A stretch of DNA of 64,000 nt from Rhodobium gokarnense (lineage in GTDB: Bacteria > Pseudomonadota > Alphaproteobacteria > Rhizobiales > Rhodobiaceae): NCBI RefSeq assembly GCF_025961475.1, contig NZ_JAOQNS010000003.1, positions 444,501 through 508,500 of the forward strand. Reading direction: 5' to 3'. The position numbers and the translations under genes are program-made. Each line of letters starts with the position of its first letter. Position 1 is the stretch's first letter. Of the stretch, positions 6,512 through 18,846 are shown piece by piece. Below the pieces are notes generated by a model. The model was not told the DNA's origin, did not search any database, and saw only the letters and a list, made by a program, of their open reading frames with translations.

Positions 6512-7381
6512 ATGCGAAAGCCAGTTAGCCCAAGACGCCAGTTCGTCAAGGCGGCTATGGCCGCCCCCTATCTCACCAAGGAAGAGGAACAGTCCCTCGC
6601 CGTGCGCTGGCGCGACGACAAGGACCAGCAAGCCCTCCACAAGCTGACCTCCGCTCACATGCGCCTGGTCATCGCCCTTGCCGCCAAGTTCCGCCATTTC
6701 GGCCTGTCGATGAACGACCTCATCCAGGAGGGCCATGTCGGCCTCCTGGAAGCGGCCGCCCGCTTCGAGCCGGAACGGGACGTGCGCTTCTCCACCTACG
6801 CCACCTGGTGGATCCGCGCCTCGATCCAGGACCACGTGCTGCGCAACTGGTCGATCGTGCGCGGCGGCACCTCCTCGGCCCAGAAGGCGCTGTTCTTCAA
6901 CCTGCGCCGCCTGCGCGCCAAAATCGCTGTCAGCGGCCAGTCCGAGCCCGACAAGGACGCCTATGAGGAGATCGCCATGGCGGTCGGCGTCTCGCGCAAG
7001 GACGTGGAGCTGATGGATTCGCGCCTGTCCGGCCCGGACATGTCGCTCAACGCCCCGGTCATCGAGTCCGACGGCAACAGCGCCGACCGCCAGGACTTCC
7101 TGGTCAGCGACGGCCCGCTGCCGGACGAGACGGTCGGCTCGGAGATCGACAAGGAGCGCCGCTCCCAGTGGCTCGGCTCGGCCCTGACCGTCCTCAGCGA
7201 GCGCGAACTGAAGATCGTCAGCGAGCGCCGGCTCACCGAAGAGGGCGCGACGCTGGAAAGCCTCGGCGCCAAGCTCGGCATCTCCAAGGAGCGCGTGCGC
7301 CAGATCGAGGCCCGCGCACTTGAGAAGCTGCGCGCCGCGCTGTTGCAGGAAAATGCGGACCCGGCCGCCTTCGTCGGCTGA
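6512..7381 (+). CDS. rpoH: RNA polymerase sigma-32 type factor (RpoH)
   Basis: A 289-residue heat-shock/stress sigma factor. Region 2 (about residues 45-120) has the DLIQEGHVGLLEAAARFEP and STYATWWIRASIQDHVLRNW blocks used for core binding and -10 recognition. The RpoH box appears as QKALFFNLRRLR just after it. Region 4 has a helix-turn-helix at about 249-275 (LGAKLGISKERVRQIEARAL). Many Rhizobiales carry two RpoH paralogues; the position next to carD/fdxA and the variant RpoH box suggest the RpoH2 type, but one sequence cannot settle that. It has its own promoter region after the carD terminator. Confidence 0.92.
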   Translation: MRKPVSPRRQFVKAAMAAPYLTKEEEQSLAVRWRDDKDQQALHKLTSAHMRLVIALAAKFRHFGLSMNDLIQEGHVGLLEAAARFEPERDVRFSTYATWWIRASIQDHVLRNWSIVRGGTSSAQKALFFNLRRLRAKIAVSGQSEPDKDAYEEIAMAVGVSRKDVELMDSRLSGPDMSLNAPVIESDGNSADRQDFLVSDGPLPDETVGSEIDKERRSQWLGSALTVLSERELKIVSERRLTEEGATLESLGAKLGISKERVRQIEARALEKLRAALLQENADPAAFVG

Positions 7382-7384
7382 CCT

Positions 7385-7488
7385 AAAGCGCTTTCCCAAA
7401 AAGTTGATAGACTTTTTGGATAAGAAATCGCGTCAAAACAAAAACCTAAAGCATGTTGCGTGTTTCATAAAAAACGCAACATGCTTTA
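7385..7488. repeat. Rhizobial-type intergenic palindromic mosaic
   Basis: The block combines AAAGCGCTTT (7385-7394), a 9-bp hairpin (7396-7404 with 7411-7419) and a perfect 15-bp stem (7447-7461 with 7474-7488) with a 12-base loop. The words AAAGCGCTTT, AAAAGTTGATAGACTTTTT and TAAAGCATGTTGCG are typical of dispersed intergenic repeats in Rhizobiales. It lies between rpoH and its terminator and codes for nothing. Confidence 0.8.
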
Positions 7489-11294: not shown

Positions 11295-12449
11295 TCAGTT
11301 CGCGTACCAGGCGATGAAATAGCCGGCGACGACGGCGGTGCCGATGACGCCGGCAACGTTCGGCCCCATGGCATGCATCAAAAGGAAATTGCCGGGGTCG
11401 GCGCGCTGGCCCTCGACCTGGCTGACCCGCGCGGCCATCGGCACGGCGGAAACGCCGGCCGAGCCGATCAGCGGGTTGATCTTGTTGGTGCCGCTGAAGA
11501 GGTTCATGACCTTGGCCATCAGCACGCCGCAGGCGGTCGCGATGCCGAAGGCAATGACGCCGAGGCCGAGGATCTTCAGGGTATCGCCGTTGAGGAACCG
11601 CTCGCCGGTCATGGTGATGCCGACCGAGGTGCCGAGGAAGATCGTCACCACATTGATGAGTTCGTTCTGGGCCGCCTTGGTGAGCCGCTCGGTGACGAGG
11701 CTCTCGCGCAGGAAATTGCCGAGCATCAGCATGCCGATCAGCGCCGAGGCGGCGGGCACCAGCAGGATGACGACGATGGTGACCATGGCCGCAAAGATCA
11801 GCTTTTCCAGCCGCGAGACGGGCCTCAGCGAGCGCATGCGGATCTTGCGCTCCTTTTCCGTCGTCAGCAGCCGCATGATCGGTGGCTGCAACAGCGGCAC
11901 CAGCGCCATGTAGCTGTAGGCGGCGACGGCGATCGGCGCCAGCAGGTGCGGCGCCAGCTTGTTGGCAAGGAAGATCGAGGTCGGCCCGTCGGCGCCGCCG
12001 ATGATGCCGATGGCGCCCGCCTCCATCGGCGAAAAGCCGATTGCGGCTGCCCCGAGGAAGGTGGCAAAGACGCCGAACTGGGCGGCCGCACCCAGGAGCA
12101 GCGTGCGCGGATTGGCGATCAGCGGCCCGAAATCGGTCAGCGCCCCGACGCCGAGGAAGATCAGCGGCGGGAAGATCTCAAGATCGACGCCCTTTGAGAT
12201 GTAGTAGTAGAGCCCGCCGCCATGCTCGCCCGCCGGCGCATTGATCAGCCCCTCCGTCGGCAGGTTGGCGAGCAGTGCGCCGAAGGCGATCGGCACCAGG
12301 AGGAGCGGCTCGAACTTGCGGTAGACGGCGAGATAGAAGAGCACGCCGACGACCACCCACATCACCGCCATCTGCCAGGTGACATCGGCAATGGCGGTCA
12401 GGTGCCAGAGCTGTTCGAGCTTTGAGGTCTCGGTCGCGGTGCCGTCCAT
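11295..12449 (-). CDS. mmdB: Na+-transporting methylmalonyl-CoA decarboxylase beta subunit
   Basis: A 384-residue integral membrane protein of the OadB/GcdB/MmdB family, with about nine hydrophobic segments. These subunits decarboxylate carboxybiotin and use the energy to pump Na+ outward. The key family motif GGADGPTS is present with the essential Asp at residue 154. It is last of four minus-strand genes (mmdA, mmdD, mmdC, mmdB), the same relative order as the Veillonella decarboxylase. The alpha partner is an acyl-CoA carboxyltransferase rather than a pyruvate-carboxylase-type protein, so methylmalonyl-CoA is the likely substrate rather than oxaloacetate. It ends 18 bases from convergent ribB. 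Confidence 0.88.
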
Positions 12450-12483
12450 GGATGGGCCCCAGACAATCAGGAAAAGTGCAAGG

Positions 12484-12882
12484 TCAGGAAAGGGTGACGA
12501 GGACCTGGCCCTCGGTGACGGTCGCCCCCGGGGTCACGTGGACGGCGTCGACCGTGCCGCCATTGGGCGCGCCGATCACCGTGTTCATCTTCATGGCTTC
12601 CAGCACCAGCAGCGTGTCGCCGGCGCCGACCGTCTGGCCGGCGGACACCTCGACGCTGACCACCGTTCCAGCAAGCGGGCTCGGCACGGAGCCGGGGCCG
12701 GCGGCGACCACAGGTGCGGCAGGAGCGGCTGCAACGGGCGCGGCGGGACGCACGGCGGGCGCCGCCGCTGCGACGGGGGCAACGGACGCCGGCGCAACAG
12801 CCGGCGCCCCATCGGCGCCATCGAGTTCCTCCACCGTCACCTCATAGGCAACGCCTTCCACGGTGATCCGCAAGCGCTTCAT
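12484..12882 (-). CDS. mmdC: Biotin carrier subunit of methylmalonyl-CoA decarboxylase
   Basis: A 132-residue biotin carboxyl carrier protein. A short N-terminal beta segment is followed by an Ala/Pro-rich flexible linker (about residues 25-66) and a biotinyl domain with LEAMKMNT, where Lys98 is the biotinylation site. The linker lets the biotin swing between the carboxyltransferase (MmdA) and the membrane decarboxylase (MmdB). The gene overlaps the end of mmdD by 4 bases and precedes mmdB by 34. Confidence 0.9.
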
Positions 12883-13292
12883 GGTCGGTTTCCTCTTTTG
12901 TCGTTTTGGGCCGCGCCGCCGAGCGGCGGCCGCATCGCGGCCCAGTCGGCGCGGGTGCGGTGGCCATTGAATGTCTGGATCCGGCCTTCAAGGGGCCAAT
13001 CGCCGACCTTGTGGGCCGGCGCGGCAATCCGGGTCACGCGGTAGCCGCCGCCGAGCGTCGCCGCGACGGCAGCGGAAATGGCGACGAGATGGTGCGGCGG
13101 CACGCCCGGCGTCGCGGCAGCAAGCGCCGGTTGGCTCGGCGCCGGCTTTTCCGCATCCTTGGCTTCGACCTTCGTGCCGCGGGTGAAGAACAGGCCGATC
13201 AGCGCGCAGGCGGCCCAGATCAGCGCCAGCACCAGCATGACGACGCTGAACCCCGTACCGATCATTTCCAGGTTTTCCAGCATGGCGCCCAT
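12879..13292 (-). CDS. mmdD: OadG-like small membrane subunit of methylmalonyl-CoA decarboxylase
   Basis: 137 residues with one N-terminal transmembrane helix (about 10-33, IGTGFSVVMLVLALIWAACA). A variable Ala/Pro linker and a C-terminal basic segment (HHLVAISAAVAATLGGGYRV) follow. This is the architecture of OadG/MmdD subunits, which tether the carboxyltransferase to the membrane part and stabilise the complex. The gene lies 28 bases after mmdA and overlaps mmdC by 4 bases. An ATG three codons downstream is an alternative start. Confidence 0.82.
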   Translation of the reverse strand: MGAMLENLEMIGTGFSVVMLVLALIWAACALIGLFFTRGTKVEAKDAEKPAPSQPALAAATPGVPPHHLVAISAAVAATLGGGYRVTRIAAPAHKVGDWPLEGRIQTFNGHRTRADWAAMRPPLGGAAQNDKRGNRP

Positions 13293-13320
13293 CCCGTTCG
13301 CCTAAACCTATCCCGTTCGC

Positions 13321-14874
13321 CTAAAGCGGAATGTTGCCGTGCTTCTTCGGCGGCCGCGTCTCGCGCTTCGACAACAGCCCCCTCAGCGTCAGCGCGATGG
13401 AGGCGCGCGTCTGGCGCGGCTGGATGATGTCGGAGACGAACAGCATGCCGGCCGAAAGATAGGGCGAGGCGAACTGGGCGCGGTACTCGTCGGCCAGCTC
13501 CGTTGCCCGCGTATGCCGATCCTCCGCGGCCGCAAGATCCTTGCGGTAGAGGATGTTGACGGCCCCTTCCGCGCCCATCACGGCGATTTCCGCCGTCGGC
13601 CAGGCGAGCACCCGGTCGGCGCCCATGTCCTGGCTGCACATGGCGAGATAGGCGCCGCCATAGGCCTTGCGCATGATGACCGTGATCTTCGGCACCGTCG
13701 CCGACGCGTAGGCAAAGAGCATCTTGGCGCCGTGGCGGATGATGCCGCGCCGCTCCTCGGTGACGCCCGGAAGGAAGCCGGGCACGTCGACGAGGTTGAT
13801 GAGCGGGATGTTGAAGACGTTGCAGAAACGCACGAAGCGGGCCGCCTTGTCGCTGGCATCGATATCCAGCGTGCCCGCCTTCACCGTCGGCTGGTTGGAG
13901 ACGAACCCGACGACCACGCCGCCGATGCGCCCGAAGCCGACGACGATGTTGGCGGCAAAGCCGGCCATCACTTCCATGAAGTCGCCGTCATCGGCGAGCC
14001 GCGTGATCACATTGCGGCAGTCGAACGGCGTCTTCGGATTGTCCGGGATCAGGTCGTCGAGCGCGGGATCGTCGGCGATGGAAAGGTCCGGGTCGATATG
14101 GTGCGGCGGGTCCATCATGTTGTTGGACGGCAGGAACGACAGCAGCCGGTGGACGATACGCACCGCATCGGCATCATCCTCGGCGATGAAATGGATGTTG
14201 CCGGAGACCGAGGCGTGCGCCTCGGCCGAGCCGATCTCCTCCATGGTCGTCACCTGGCCGGTAACGGCGCGGATCACCTCCGGCCCGCAGATGAACATCT
14301 GCGCGTGTTCGCGGGTCATGATGAGAAAGTCGGTAAGTGCCGGGCTGTAGGCCGCGCCGCCCGCGCAGGGGCCGGCAATGACCGAAATCTGCGGCACGAC
14401 ACCGGAAAGCTGGACGTTGCGATAGAACACCTGGCCATAGGCGGCGAGCGCCCCGACGCCCTCCTGGATGCGCGCGCCGCCCGAATCGTTGAAGCCGACG
14501 ACGGGAACGCCGGCTTTCGCCGCGTGATCGAGCGTGTGGCAGATCTTCTTGGAATGGATGTCGCCGAGCGAGCCGCCGGCAACGTTGAAATCCTGCGAGA
14601 AGGCCGCGACCGGCCGGCCGTCGACGAAGCCGGTGCCGGTGATCACCGCATCGGTCGGGATCGACTTCTTCTCCATGCCGAAATGGCGCGTGTTGTGCTG
14701 GGCGTGGAGGCCGAACTCCTGGAACGTGCCCTGCGAGAACAACGCCTCGAGCCGCTCGCGGGCGGTCATCCGCCCCTTGGCGTGGCGGGCTTCCGCCTTC
14801 TCCGCGCCGCCGCCCTCAAGCGCCGCCTTGCGCCGCTTTTCCAACTCGTCCGCGAGAGCCTTGGAAATCGCCAT
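13321..14874 (-). CDS. mmdA: Methylmalonyl-CoA decarboxylase carboxyltransferase subunit alpha
   Basis: A 517-residue acyl-CoA carboxyltransferase with paired crotonase-like domains, homologous to propionyl-CoA carboxylase beta and Veillonella MmdA (about 510 residues). Typical blocks are GRMTARERLEALF near the N-terminus, the first oxyanion region GDIHSKKICHTLD and the second GAKMLFAYASATVPKITVI. It moves the free carboxyl group of (S)-methylmalonyl-CoA to biotin on MmdC. A propionyl-CoA carboxylase beta role is the alternative, but the adjoining mmdD, mmdC and mmdB genes make the Na+ pump more likely. It is first in the four-gene operon. Confidence 0.88.
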   Translation of the reverse strand: MAISKALADELEKRRKAALEGGGAEKAEARHAKGRMTARERLEALFSQGTFQEFGLHAQHNTRHFGMEKKSIPTDAVITGTGFVDGRPVAAFSQDFNVAGGSLGDIHSKKICHTLDHAAKAGVPVVGFNDSGGARIQEGVGALAAYGQVFYRNVQLSGVVPQISVIAGPCAGGAAYSPALTDFLIMTREHAQMFICGPEVIRAVTGQVTTMEEIGSAEAHASVSGNIHFIAEDDADAVRIVHRLLSFLPSNNMMDPPHHIDPDLSIADDPALDDLIPDNPKTPFDCRNVITRLADDGDFMEVMAGFAANIVVGFGRIGGVVVGFVSNQPTVKAGTLDIDASDKAARFVRFCNVFNIPLINLVDVPGFLPGVTEERRGIIRHGAKMLFAYASATVPKITVIMRKAYGGAYLAMCSQDMGADRVLAWPTAEIAVMGAEGAVNILYRKDLAAAEDRHTRATELADEYRAQFASPYLSAGMLFVSDIIQPRQTRASIALTLRGLLSKRETRPPKKHGNIPL

Positions 14875-15103: not shown

Positions 15104-15724
15104 TTACATACGTTCGGCTACAGGGCCGGTCGGCGGCGGCCGGCGCCATTCGAAGGCAAGGCCGAAGACGAGCCCGGCGAGATGGGCGCCGTAAAGCGGG
15201 GTCCATAGAAGGCCGGCATTGAAGATCGAGCCGAACTGCCATTCGAAACCGATCTTGAGGAGATCGCCGAGCAGGAGCAGCGGCCAGAACCAGTGCCGCG
15301 TATCGCGCCAGAGCGACAGCACCGTCGCCGCAAAGAGCGCGTTGAGCGCGGCCGACAGCCCGCAATAGGCGGTGGTGTCCGGCGCAAGGACGACAAGGAA
15401 CGCCGAGACGGCGACGATCGCCCCCGCCATCAGCAAGGCGAAGCGCCCCCGCGAGGCCTCCGAGGTCTCGTAGACCGCCCCGAGCATCGCGAAGGCGCCG
15501 GCATTGAACAAAAGATGCCGGCCGTCGAGATGGACGAGGTGCCCGGTGAGGAGCCGGTAGAGCTCACCGTCGAAGACCAGCGCGCGGTCATAGACCAACG
15601 CCTCCTGCGCGCCGCCGAAAAGCGCAAAGAGGGCAACGAGCAAGGCCGTGCCGGTGAGGGTCAGCCACGGCATCCGACGGATGCCGCGGCCGATATATGC
15701 CTGGCGGGCAGCGAGCGCGGTCAT
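15104..15724 (-). CDS. rrtA: Rhombosortase (rhomboid family GlyGly-CTERM serine protease)
   Basis: A 206-residue membrane protein with six or so hydrophobic segments and rhomboid signatures. These are LTGHLVHLDGRHLLFNAGAF (His70, Asn74), the catalytic serine in YCGLSAALNAL (Ser124) and the catalytic histidine in YGAHLAGLVFG (His181). Its small size and the HLVHL..RHLLFN form resemble rhombosortases, which cleave and process proteins with GlyGly-CTERM tails. Its ATG overlaps the TGA of the upstream VIT/vWA gene (ATGA), so the two are translationally coupled. That protein carries a matching tail, making it the obvious substrate. GLSA replaces the more common GLSG. Confidence 0.8.
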   Translation of the reverse strand: MTALAARQAYIGRGIRRMPWLTLTGTALLVALFALFGGAQEALVYDRALVFDGELYRLLTGHLVHLDGRHLLFNAGAFAMLGAVYETSEASRGRFALLMAGAIVAVSAFLVVLAPDTTAYCGLSAALNALFAATVLSLWRDTRHWFWPLLLLGDLLKIGFEWQFGSIFNAGLLWTPLYGAHLAGLVFGLAFEWRRPPPTGPVAERM

Positions 15725-17997
15725 TGCGCGCCCCGTGCCCTGCGCCGGCGGGCGAGATAGGCGCCGGCCGCCGCCGTTCCCATCAGGCCGAGGCCGACGA
15801 GGCCGACATCGCCGGAGCCGCCACCGCCGCCGTGGCCGGAGCGCGGCTGGCTGAACATCGGCTTGTTGGAGTCGACACGGCGCGATGCGGTCCTGACAGG
15901 CGCCGGATTGCCTTCGGCCGATTTCGGCGTCGCCGCCGGCTGCCGGCGCTGTTCCTGCGCCTTTGCCTCGCGCTTCAGCCGGGCGTCGTTGGTACGGTCG
16001 ATGGCGAGCTTCTGGAACACCTCGTCGCGCACCACGATCATGGAGGTGAACGGCGTGACGATGCCGTATTCTTTCGACAAGTCGATCACCGCCTGTTTGG
16101 CGTCCGCGCCCTCGTCGAGCATTTCCATCGCCCACATCTCCCGTTCGATGGCGGAGAACGCCCACAGCCGCTCGATCTCCGGATTGCGCACGGTGGTTTC
16201 CGGGAACTCGAAGGTCGTGCTGTAACTGACCGGCTTGCCGGAAAGCTTGGCCGTCAGCGTGATGTCGGCCGGACCCTTGCCCCAGTAATGGCCGAACAGG
16301 ATGAGCTGTTCGCCACGATAGAGCGAGCGCACGTCGTTGCCGGTCATGTCGGCGAGGCGAAGGTCGCCGCCGGCCGGATCGAGCTTGACCTTTACGTCAT
16401 GAAGAGCCGTATGGGTCAGTTTGGACGTCGCCGTCATCAGCGCACCGACGATATCGTCGCTGTTGGAGACATTGAGCGAGGTGCCGCCTGACGCGCGCGT
16501 CATGGCGCCGAGCAGCGGCTCGTTGGCGCTGTTGCCCATGACCACGGTGAAGAGGCGGATGTCAGCGGTCTTGATGCGCTCCACGAACCGCTTGCGCTCC
16601 GTCACGCCGTCGTTCGCGACACCGTCGGTGACGAGGATGACGCCGGCCGGACGATCGTCGTCGAGGCCGGAAAGCCCCATGTCGAGCCCGGCAAAGAGAT
16701 TGGTGCTGCCGCCGGGCTGCATGTTGCGGACGATGTCGACGGCGCGGGCGACTTCCCCGGGCGTTGCCGGCAGGAAGCCGGAGGTCAGCGGATGGGCCTG
16801 CTGGTCGAAAGCGACGAGCCGGAACCGGTCCTCCGGCCGCAGCTTGCCGACGGCCTTGGCGACGCCCTCGGCAAGGGTCGCGATCTTGCCGGACATGGAA
16901 CCGGACTTGTCGAGCACGAACACCCAGTCGCGCCCGCCGGTGATCGGCTGGTGGTCGACGCCCGGCGTCAGCGTCAGCATATAGGTGCCGCGACCGTCCG
17001 GCACCGCCTTGTAGGCGGTCATGTCGAGGCTGCCGGGAAGCCCGGCCTTCTCGCGCCAGTAGACGACGACGTCGGTATCTAGCCGCACCGGCTGGGTCAC
17101 GGGCGCGGCGGGCGTTGTCTCTTCTTCGGTCCCATTGGCGGCAGTATTGCCGGCGGCCGGCGCGGCCTGTGCCGGCGCGGTGTTGTCCAGATGGACGTGC
17201 CAGCCGTCGCGGCCGGAGCGGGTGATGACGGCGTTCGGATGGGCCGGCAGGCGCACGGCCTCGACCGGATAGTCGGCCTTCAGCTCAAGGTCGAAGGTGA
17301 AGCGTCCCGTGACCGTCTCGTTGGCGGTCCAGAAGGAGAGTTTCTGTTCGTCGACCCCGCCCTCCTCCAGCGGATAGAGGTAGCGGCCGATGCCCGTGTC
17401 GAGGTTGACCGGCTGGATGTAGGAGAGCCGCACGCGCACGTCCTGGCCCGCCCGCACCGGCCAGACCTTCGTGTCGAAGGTCTTGTAGGCGTCCTGTTCG
17501 GTATAGGCGACCTCCCGGCCGGCCTGCTTTTCGCTCTGGTAGATCTCCCGGGCGCGCTGTTTCTCCACCACCTCCCCGGAGACCGGCGCCCCATCGATCC
17601 AGTAGGTGAATTCGGCAACGGCCGCCTTCTTCGGCACCGGGAACGAATAGAGCGCCTCGTCGTCGCGCGTACCGGGATTGGCGAAGGTCTGCTCCACGGT
17701 GGTGATGGCGTAGCCGTCTTCCACCACCACATCGACATCGTGGTCGACGATGGAGAGCGGCGTGCCGGTCCCGTCGGCCGGCGTCAGGAGACCTGCCGCT
17801 TGCGCGCTGGTATCGGCAAGCGGCGTCGCCAGCGCGGCAAGGAGGAGCGTGGAAAAGGCGAGCGCCTTGGCCGCGCCCCGCCGCGTCGGCGGCAGGGCGC
17901 GCACGATCGGCGTATTGTCGGCTCGGCACGGCGCATCTTCGCAGACCGTGACCGGACAGTTCGGGTCCTCATTGGGCTTCCGTTTCAGGCTTGTCAT
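15721..17997 (-). CDS. VIT and vWA domain surface protein with GlyGly-CTERM-like tail
   Basis: About 758 residues. An N-terminal hydrophobic segment (about 50-75) acts as signal or anchor and is preceded by a Cys-containing stretch. A VIT domain (about 85-210, like inter-alpha-trypsin inhibitor heavy chains) is followed by an Ala/Pro/Thr linker. A von Willebrand A domain starts near residue 355 with the MIDAS motif DKSGS. The C-terminus reads GHGGGGGSGD, then a hydrophobic helix, then RRRRARGAQ, which is the Gly-rich/helix/basic pattern of GlyGly-CTERM sorting signals. I start at 17997 because GAGGAG lies 6 bases upstream. It resembles the marine proteobacterial sortase target family, but with a rhombosortase partner. 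Expression is probably controlled by the TetR sites directly upstream. Confidence 0.85.
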   Translation of the reverse strand: MTSLKRKPNEDPNCPVTVCEDAPCRADNTPIVRALPPTRRGAAKALAFSTLLLAALATPLADTSAQAAGLLTPADGTGTPLSIVDHDVDVVVEDGYAITTVEQTFANPGTRDDEALYSFPVPKKAAVAEFTYWIDGAPVSGEVVEKQRAREIYQSEKQAGREVAYTEQDAYKTFDTKVWPVRAGQDVRVRLSYIQPVNLDTGIGRYLYPLEEGGVDEQKLSFWTANETVTGRFTFDLELKADYPVEAVRLPAHPNAVITRSGRDGWHVHLDNTAPAQAAPAAGNTAANGTEEETTPAAPVTQPVRLDTDVVVYWREKAGLPGSLDMTAYKAVPDGRGTYMLTLTPGVDHQPITGGRDWVFVLDKSGSMSGKIATLAEGVAKAVGKLRPEDRFRLVAFDQQAHPLTSGFLPATPGEVARAVDIVRNMQPGGSTNLFAGLDMGLSGLDDDRPAGVILVTDGVANDGVTERKRFVERIKTADIRLFTVVMGNSANEPLLGAMTRASGGTSLNVSNSDDIVGALMTATSKLTHTALHDVKVKLDPAGGDLRLADMTGNDVRSLYRGEQLILFGHYWGKGPADITLTAKLSGKPVSYSTTFEFPETTVRNPEIERLWAFSAIEREMWAMEMLDEGADAKQAVIDLSKEYGIVTPFTSMIVVRDEVFQKLAIDRTNDARLKREAKAQEQRRQPAATPKSAEGNPAPVRTASRRVDSNKPMFSQPRSGHGGGGGSGDVGLVGLGLMGTAAAGAYLARRRRARGAQ

Positions 17998-18010
17998 CGT
18001 CATCTCCTCG

Positions 18011-18090
18011 TGAACGATGTTCATAACTTTGGCGCGGAACGTTCTTGTGAACGTCGTTCATACACATAGCAGCCTTGTGAACAGCGTTCA
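18011..18090. promoter_or_regulatory. Three TGAAC-N3-GTTCA operators between divergent genes
   Basis: Perfect palindromes TGAAC-N3-GTTCA occur at 18011-18023, 18048-18060 and 18078-18090. A spacer-less GAACGTTC also lies at 18037-18044. They fill the intergenic region between the VIT/vWA gene and the TetR gene and are of the size a TetR dimer recognises. The first lies only 14 bases from the VIT/vWA start. Confidence 0.85.
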
Positions 18091-18225
18091 AGTGTGCAAG
18101 GAGTGAAAAGACGGGCGCGGTTAACGGGAACCGGTCCACCGCCGGGAAAGCCGACCCCGAAAGCCGGTTCGCAAACCCGGACGGGAAGTCCGCCGGGGAC
18201 CGCCGACCGAGACAGGACGCGAAAA

Positions 18226-18846
18226 ATGACGAAAGCCGCCCGCACCCGCATCGACGACCGCGAGGCGCTGAAGAAACGCTATGTGGAAGAGGCCGCCAGG
18301 ATCATCGCCGCCGAGGGCCTGTCGGCCCTCACCGCGCGCCGCCTCGCCGGCAATCTCGGCGTCGCCGTCGGCACCACCTACAATCTCTTTGCCAATCTCG
18401 ACGAGATCGTCGTCGCGGTGAACGGCAGGACCCTCGACGGGCTGGCCGCGGCCATCGCCGCAGAGCCGTTACCGGCCGAGAGCGTCGAGGCGGCGCTGAT
18501 CGCCCTCTCCGACCGCTATCTCGGCTTCGTGCGATCCAACCGCAATCTCTGGCAGGCCCTCTTCGAGACGGCGGCCCCCGGCGGGGGCGAGGGGCCGTTC
18601 CCGAACCAGCCGCGCTTCGAGGCGCTCTTTGCCGTCGTGGAGGGCGTGCTCGGCCCCCTCTTCCCGCCCGGCAAGGAGGCCGCCCGCGCCCGTTCGGCCC
18701 GCGTGCTCTGGGCCGGGCTCCACGGCATCTCCATGCTGGTGCTCAGCCAGCGCCTGGCGCCGCTCGGCGTCGCAACGGCGGAAGACCTCGTAAAAACCCT
18801 CGTCTGCTGCCACGTCGCCGGCCTGCGGTCGGCGCACGAGGGTTAG
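18226..18846 (+). CDS. TetR/AcrR family transcriptional regulator
   Basis: A 206-residue repressor-type protein. The N-terminal helix-turn-helix (residues about 30-62) contains LSALTARRLAGNLGVAVGTTYNLF, typical of TetR proteins. The C-terminal ligand-binding domain has the WHG-like segment LWAGLHGISMLVLSQRL seen in many members. I start at 18226 (AGGA 12 bases upstream); the longer frame from 18094 would run through the leader. It is divergent from the VIT/vWA-rhombosortase pair and very probably binds the three palindromes between them, controlling that pair and itself. The ligand is unknown. Confidence 0.88.
   Translation: MTKAARTRIDDREALKKRYVEEAARIIAAEGLSALTARRLAGNLGVAVGTTYNLFANLDEIVVAVNGRTLDGLAAAIAAEPLPAESVEAALIALSDRYLGFVRSNRNLWQALFETAAPGGGEGPFPNQPRFEALFAVVEGVLGPLFPPGKEAARARSARVLWAGLHGISMLVLSQRLAPLGVATAEDLVKTLVCCHVAGLRSAHEG

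Follow-up and report, generated by a model that had tools for sequence, protein, structure and literature searches.

A TetR-flanked rhombosortase and VIT/vWA gene pair of Alphaproteobacteria as a putative one-enzyme, one-substrate cassette

VIT/vWA proteins commonly have binding or scaffold roles, and one described setting for them, the marine sortase system TIGR03788/TIGR03784, has a two-component regulator. Dedicated pairs of adjacent rhombosortase and target genes have already been published by Haft & Varghese 2011 (PMC3237569, accessible text), as have VIT/vWA proteins carrying GlyGly-CTERM, PEP-CTERM or LPXTG tails; in their survey, 16 of 21 single-target genomes have the enzyme and target no more than one gene apart. 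According to the same text, a His four residues after the active Ser (Ser+4) is found in 'virtually all' rhombosortases and is the best predictor of GlyGly-CTERM proteins, and species with a rhombosortase generally possess a type II secretion system (T2SS) as well. For VesB of Vibrio cholerae, the accessible part of PMC6219818 reports that the T2SS is needed for surface location, and transfer of the new C-terminus to an amino-lipid such as phosphatidylethanolamine is suspected. Here we describe a related locus of Rhodobium gokarnense, found in a 64,000-nucleotide stretch of DNA (the window) of a genome available as a 5.1 Mb assembly in 25 contigs. The features of the locus are as follows.

15104 to 15724, minus strand: rhombosortase-family rhomboid, 206 residues, with a Ser124/His181 dyad and Asn128 at Ser+4
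15721 to 15724, minus strand: ATGA stop/start overlap leading from the target gene into the rhomboid gene
15721 to 17997, minus strand: VIT/vWA target, 758 residues, with a signal region and a C-terminal Gly-rich/hydrophobic/Arg tail
15724 to 15843, minus strand: sorting-type tail of the target, its C-terminal 40 residues (Gly-rich, hydrophobic at 731-749, Arg cluster)
18011 to 18023, no strand assigned: palindrome TGAACGATGTTCA, a putative TetR operator that adjoins the ribosome binding site of the target
18048 to 18060, no strand assigned: palindrome TGAACGTCGTTCA, a putative TetR operator
18078 to 18090, no strand assigned: palindrome TGAACAGCGTTCA, a putative TetR operator
18226 to 18846, plus strand: divergent TetR-family regulator, 206 residues, assigned by Pfam

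The start of the target was set at 17997, where GAGGAG stands six bases upstream; an alternative in-frame ATG is located at 18024. Pfam detected a VIT domain (PF08487, 106 bits) and a vWA domain (PF13768 and PF00092), and the two top hydrophobic stretches of the protein were found to be the signal region (residues ~43-61) and the tail (731-749). The C-terminus, GHGGGGGSGDVGLVGLGLMGTAAAGAYLARRRRARGAQ, is laid out as a Cys-free Gly-rich motif, a hydrophobic helix and a basic end, with a putative signal peptide at the opposite end of the protein. This putative signal peptide (17890-17997, minus strand) is unusual in the length of its N-terminal region, ~40 residues, a feature common to genome G001 and absent from the other relatives; an internal GTG start would yield an ordinary signal peptide. 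Directly downstream of the pair (11295-14874, minus strand) are genes whose translations, on inspection by eye, resemble a sodium-pumping decarboxylase complex, with a carboxyltransferase, a small subunit, a biotin carrier and a membrane subunit.

The rhomboid scored 103.3 bits against the rhombosortase model TIGR03902 (NCBIfam cut-off 84) and 50.7 bits against PF01694, and four scanned relatives likewise exceeded the TIGR03902 cut-off. It is the one rhomboid of the window's genome above this cut-off, with two others below. The sequence YRLLTG stands where the WRxxS/T motif is expected. An alignment of 83 rhomboids was prepared, including all 50 above-cut-off loci of the phylum search described below (the window's own being L009) and 20 of the 30 below-cut-off loci, with the second rhomboid copy of G825 (L094) left out. 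A Ser/His pair occupies the columns of Ser124 and His181 in 79 of these 83 rows. Thus, the sequence-only reading, an earlier account of this DNA which had proposed a rhombosortase with Ser and His sites, joined through an ATGA overlap to a target ending in a Gly-rich stretch, a hydrophobic helix and an Arg cluster, is borne out in each of these points by the alignment, the TIGR03902 score, the overlap at 15721-15724 and the C-terminus as read. In four rhomboid relatives below the rhombosortase cut-off (L105, L108, L101 and L103), the Ser is replaced by Thr or Phe; because the Ser/His pair is missing, these proteins may be inactive.

At the Ser+4 position, Asn was found in all eight enzymes of the alphaproteobacterial pairs but not once among the remaining 75 aligned rhomboids. 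His occupies this position in 40 of the 49 other above-cut-off rhombosortases, with the remaining nine also being without it; the window rhomboid thus lacks a hallmark that is itself not strictly universal. When the rhomboid tree was examined, the eight alphaproteobacterial enzymes formed one clade (support 99/97), which was separated from the GlpG-like rhomboids of the genus by a 100/98 branch, while the fork uniting the Asn clade with the canonical rhombosortases reached only 86/77. The pair enzyme of G687, a genome of another class, keeps the His at Ser+4 and sits on a long branch whose placement is unsure. Because Asn replaces the hallmark His, the chemistry of the clade may differ from that of V. 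cholerae. Structural modelling of the rhomboid, based on two sequences, gave a mean pLDDT of 40.8 and was not usable.

The pair was also sought in related genomes, a check that the sequence-only reading had proposed. When 297 genomes of the order were searched, the rhomboid (E < 1e-40) and the target (limit 1e-40) had strong relatives in the same six, and these were adjacent in all six; in four further genomes the rhomboid was matched weakly (E 4e-7 to 8e-5). The closest named record is that of Rhodobium orientis DSM 11290, with a rhomboid of 90% identity, while G002, the third genome of the genus, had neither a rhomboid nor a target relative. Across 385 genomes of the class, TIGR03902 matched three at E <= 1e-15, namely the window's own, G374 and G505, the latter two belonging to other orders and both having a VIT/vWA gene directly before the rhombosortase. 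Across 398 genomes of the phylum, 77 matched TIGR03902, and 50 of the 80 listed loci were above cut-off. A target profile was then run (E <= 1e-30) on 78 rhombosortase-positive genomes, comprising 76 of the 77 phylum positives plus G374 and G505, and matched five: beside the enzyme in G505, G374 and G687, and apart from it in G768 and in G825, where the VIT/vWA relative and the rhombosortase are on separate contigs (C39 and C41). Overall, the adjacent pair was found in nine genomes, eight of them alphaproteobacterial and the ninth G687. The junction of the eight alphaproteobacterial pairs is ATGA in three, TAATG or TGATG in four and a close start in one (G374). In a ten-row target tree the eight alphaproteobacterial targets were not one clade, as G825 falls among them; therefore, joint descent of enzyme and target is not supported for all eight. 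A plasmid search returned no match to the target at 1e-20 and two weak partial matches to the rhomboid.

A TetR-family gene was found divergent from the target in all eight alphaproteobacterial cassettes. The product of the window's gene scored 43.0 bits for TetR_C_33 (cut-off 26.8) and 23.2 bits for TetR_N, just under the cut-off of 24; when five of the eight cassette regulators were run on Pfam, TetR_C_33 was above cut-off in all five and TetR_N in four, the exception being that of the window. Exact TGAACNNNGTTCA palindromes, between one and four per cassette, are positioned between or beside the TetR and target genes in each of the eight, with (i) three each in G000, G001, G029, G106, G137 and G374; (ii) four in G505; and (iii) one in G250, which has another with a mismatch. 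The window's genome has exactly three exact copies, all between the TetR gene and the target. Genome-wide, the three of the cassette are the only copies in G000, G001, G029, G106 and G137, while G374 has 4, G250 has 7 and G505 has 8; the reversed pattern, used as a control, occurred in 0 to 2 copies per genome. For five of the eight genomes, the case for a putative repressor dedicated to the pair operon is strong, though indirect. A scan of 17900-18300 for promoters identified no sigma-70-like site; by eye, TTGAAC-17-TATGTG is seen between the outer two operators and hints at a promoter. In G505 (L058, about 7232-7459, minus strand), an apparent small protein of ~50 residues with one hydrophobic stretch was noted by eye between the target and the TetR gene, with palindromes on its flanks. 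G687 has two exact palindromes ahead of its target (L090:6668-6702), but within 11 kb around the pair no gene for a TetR protein was recognised. These palindromes suggest that the cassette or its promoter may have moved between classes.

The same palindrome was observed at other loci of two relatives. In G250 (L063:1-5040), four TGAACNNNGTTCA copies adjoin an additional TetR gene and an operon whose products include a hydrolase resembling serine esterases and a protein that combines MFS, acyltransferase and AMP-binding domains in the manner of LplT-Aas. G505 (L064:1-3369) has one copy ahead of the same hydrolase and LplT-Aas pair. A link through the operator between the G250/G505 regulon and lysophospholipid recycling is possible. 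At E <= 1e-40, LplT-Aas matched in G250, G505, G687 and G825 and had no match in G000, G001, G002, G029, G106, G137 or G374. LplT-Aas recycling was considered as part of the window's system and rejected, because the window's genome has no match at this limit.

The export machinery of the hosts was judged by GspD alone. GspD (TIGR02517) was above cut-off in none of the nine paired genomes, and was above cut-off in all four unpaired rhombosortase genomes and in two control genomes. When eight alphaproteobacterial secretins were run on Pfam, seven had PF13629, an N-terminal region of the pilus type, and the eighth (the second match of G374) has the secretin domain only. No NCBIfam model passed for the secretins of G001 and G106. 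The secretins of G687 include two above the MshL cut-off (MshL-type) and two that match no assigned type, while the one secretin of the window's genome is within a Tad-like cluster with CpaB-, CpaE-, CpaF- and TadB-like genes (named by eye). Judged by these searches, the cassette hosts seem to be without the export machine usual for such proteins, and the target product most likely stays periplasmic because no GspD was recognised. Counting against a T2SS-free reading, a review states that most present alphaproteobacteria carry a T2SS (PMC10128026, accessible text).

Most likely, the locus represents an inducible, T2SS-independent system of one enzyme and one substrate that would cut, and perhaps lipid-anchor, a periplasmic VIT/vWA protein. 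We assign a probability of roughly 60% to this three-gene cassette being repressed by the TetR protein, with the rhomboid processing its one coupled VIT/vWA substrate to a periplasmic product that is freed or lipid-joined. From the anatomy of the locus and the conservation of the pair, operators and enzyme clade, we infer the following course of repression, cleavage, lipid transfer and final location. The TetR-type repressor, bound to the three TGAACNNNGTTCA palindromes, would silence both the gene that encodes it and the VIT/vWA-rhombosortase operon transcribed in the opposite direction until a signal arrives. On induction, the VIT/vWA protein would be exported by Sec, its C-terminal helix remaining embedded in the inner membrane and its Arg cluster lying on the cytoplasmic side. 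The rhomboid produced from the coupled gene would then cleave at the Gly-rich stretch by means of the Ser124/His181 dyad, and the new C-terminus would either be freed or be passed to an amino-lipid, e.g., phosphatidylethanolamine, as proposed for VesB; the Asn at Ser+4 could favour release or lipid transfer. The processed target would remain in the periplasm, free or lipid-held, rather than at the cell surface. A further-reaching version is tentative and somewhat less probable than its opposite: that the Asn clade is a functionally distinct rhombosortase, encoded in an inducible cassette together with a repressor and its only substrate, the whole being periplasmic, T2SS-free and possibly phosphatidylethanolamine-joining, with the G250/G505 regulon hinting that the anchor lipid is remade under the same regulon.

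The alternative that survives best, though we regard it as unlikely, is that the rhomboid only hydrolyses the tail, such that the target is shed lipid-free into the periplasm and the Asn at Ser+4 is the mark of a hydrolase and not of a transamidase. The confinement of Asn to the pair enzymes (8/8 versus 0/75 of the other aligned rhomboids) is consistent with such shedding, as are the lack of GspD above cut-off in the nine paired genomes and the absence of LplT-Aas from G000, G001, G029, G106, G137 and G374 (limit 1e-40). However, the Gly-rich cut region is of the kind that bears lipid in VesB (PMC6219818, accessible text), and the enzyme of the adjacent pair in G687 retains the His.

The target could also be of the sortase type (LPXTG-like) or plainly membrane-anchored, with the rhomboid acting elsewhere or on misplaced copies only. 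The protein scored 213.4 bits against the LPXTG-type family TIGR03788, making it a remote relative that falls short of membership (cut-off 551.65), and the isolated 40-residue tail scored 17.1 bits against the LPXTG-anchor model TIGR01167, passing the cut-off of 15.9; this match begins past the LPXTG motif positions, and the whole target fails at 11.3 bits. We consider a sortase-type or plainly anchored target improbable, as inspection of the C-terminus identified no LPXTG motif in the tail, the pair is conserved with its translational coupling in nine genomes, and other rhombosortases show a genetic association with tails of this kind (PMC3237569, accessible text).

How many substrates the enzyme has was examined with the GlyGly-CTERM model TIGR03501. 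The tails of the eight alphaproteobacterial targets are Gly-rich and hydrophobic with a basic end (e.g., SHSGGGSGGSGAIGLPGLILAILVLCGTLRLRRREAA of G137), and the model matched neither the tail of the window nor that of any of the nine paired targets; at no locus of the nine paired genomes was it above cut-off. Matches above cut-off were detected in four unpaired rhombosortase genomes (8 in G844, 7 in G943, 6 in G825 and 1 in G951). The model was run at E <= 10 together with positive genomes, as at E <= 0.001 nothing matched, controls included; at the loose limit 11 of the 14 control genomes had matches, one of them above cut-off, and weak matches therefore carry no meaning. As another substrate in the window's genome, the sole weak match (12.4 bits, below cut-off) was rejected, being a 73-residue frame overlapping an aminotransferase-like gene. 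Silence of the model elsewhere in the genome is weak evidence because the paired target is missed too. An ordinary many-substrate rhombosortase that stands by chance beside one target, its remaining tails being missed by the model, appears just as improbable as a sortase-type target: though TIGR03501 is blind even to the paired target and the VIT/vWA relative and enzyme of G825 are on different contigs, enzyme/target adjacency is found mostly in the single-target genomes of the published survey (PMC3237569, accessible text), and the window's genome yielded no weak match apart from the frame just described.

These results refine the sequence-only reading. Its one-substrate system agrees with the finding of no other TIGR03501 tail above cut-off in the genome, while divergent tails remain conceivable with a model that misses the paired target. 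Its claim that the target had swapped sorting machinery is not established, the relationship to TIGR03788 being remote and the variety of tails on VIT/vWA proteins already published; and its placing of rhombosortases in gammaproteobacteria is too narrow, their occurrence being wider (PMC3237569, Table 3, accessible text). It had missed the TetR gene (18226-18846), the palindromes (18011-18090) and Asn128 at Ser+4, as well as the absence of any GspD that could be recognised. In the openly accessible literature, we found no work joining rhombosortase with the VIT domain, nor the VIT domain with sortase and TetR, and in the accessible texts GlyGly-CTERM in Alphaproteobacteria is mentioned in reference lists only. 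Not found in print within that literature, and so apparently new, are the clade of alphaproteobacterial enzymes with Asn at Ser+4, the cassette organisation with a TetR gene and operators, the tails missed by TIGR03501 and the absence of GspD. If the proposed reading is true, the processing of rhombosortase tails would be separable from type II export, the two having so far been studied only together. A cassette of one enzyme, one substrate and one regulator would be a simpler setting than Vibrio with its six targets, and would suit the questions of whether transamidation is carried out by the rhomboid itself and of what role His versus Asn has at Ser+4; the operator would serve as a handle for the inducing signal and for finding further cassettes by DNA pattern.

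Compared with the GlyGly-CTERM pairs of PMC3237569 (accessible text), the locus is alike in having a TIGR03902 enzyme beside a single tailed target, with VIT/vWA being among the tailed families. It is unlike them in that (i) Asn and not His is at Ser+4; (ii) the tail escapes TIGR03501; (iii) it has a dedicated TetR gene with operators, TetR being a term that PMC3237569 never uses; and (iv) GspD was not recognised. With RssP and VesB of V. cholerae, the locus shares the order of Gly-rich motif, hydrophobic helix and basic end, and RssP cuts at the Gly-rich motif, as proposed here; RssP differs in having many targets (VesB and five others) and T2SS export to the surface (PMC6219818 and PMC13393428, accessible text). 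The rhomboid described here has one recognised partner, and no T2SS component was found by the GspD search. As in the marine sortase system TIGR03788/TIGR03784, a VIT/vWA protein with an anchor-type tail is accompanied by a dedicated enzyme gene; unlike that system, the target reaches 213 bits against the cut-off of 551.65, and the enzyme is a rhomboid.
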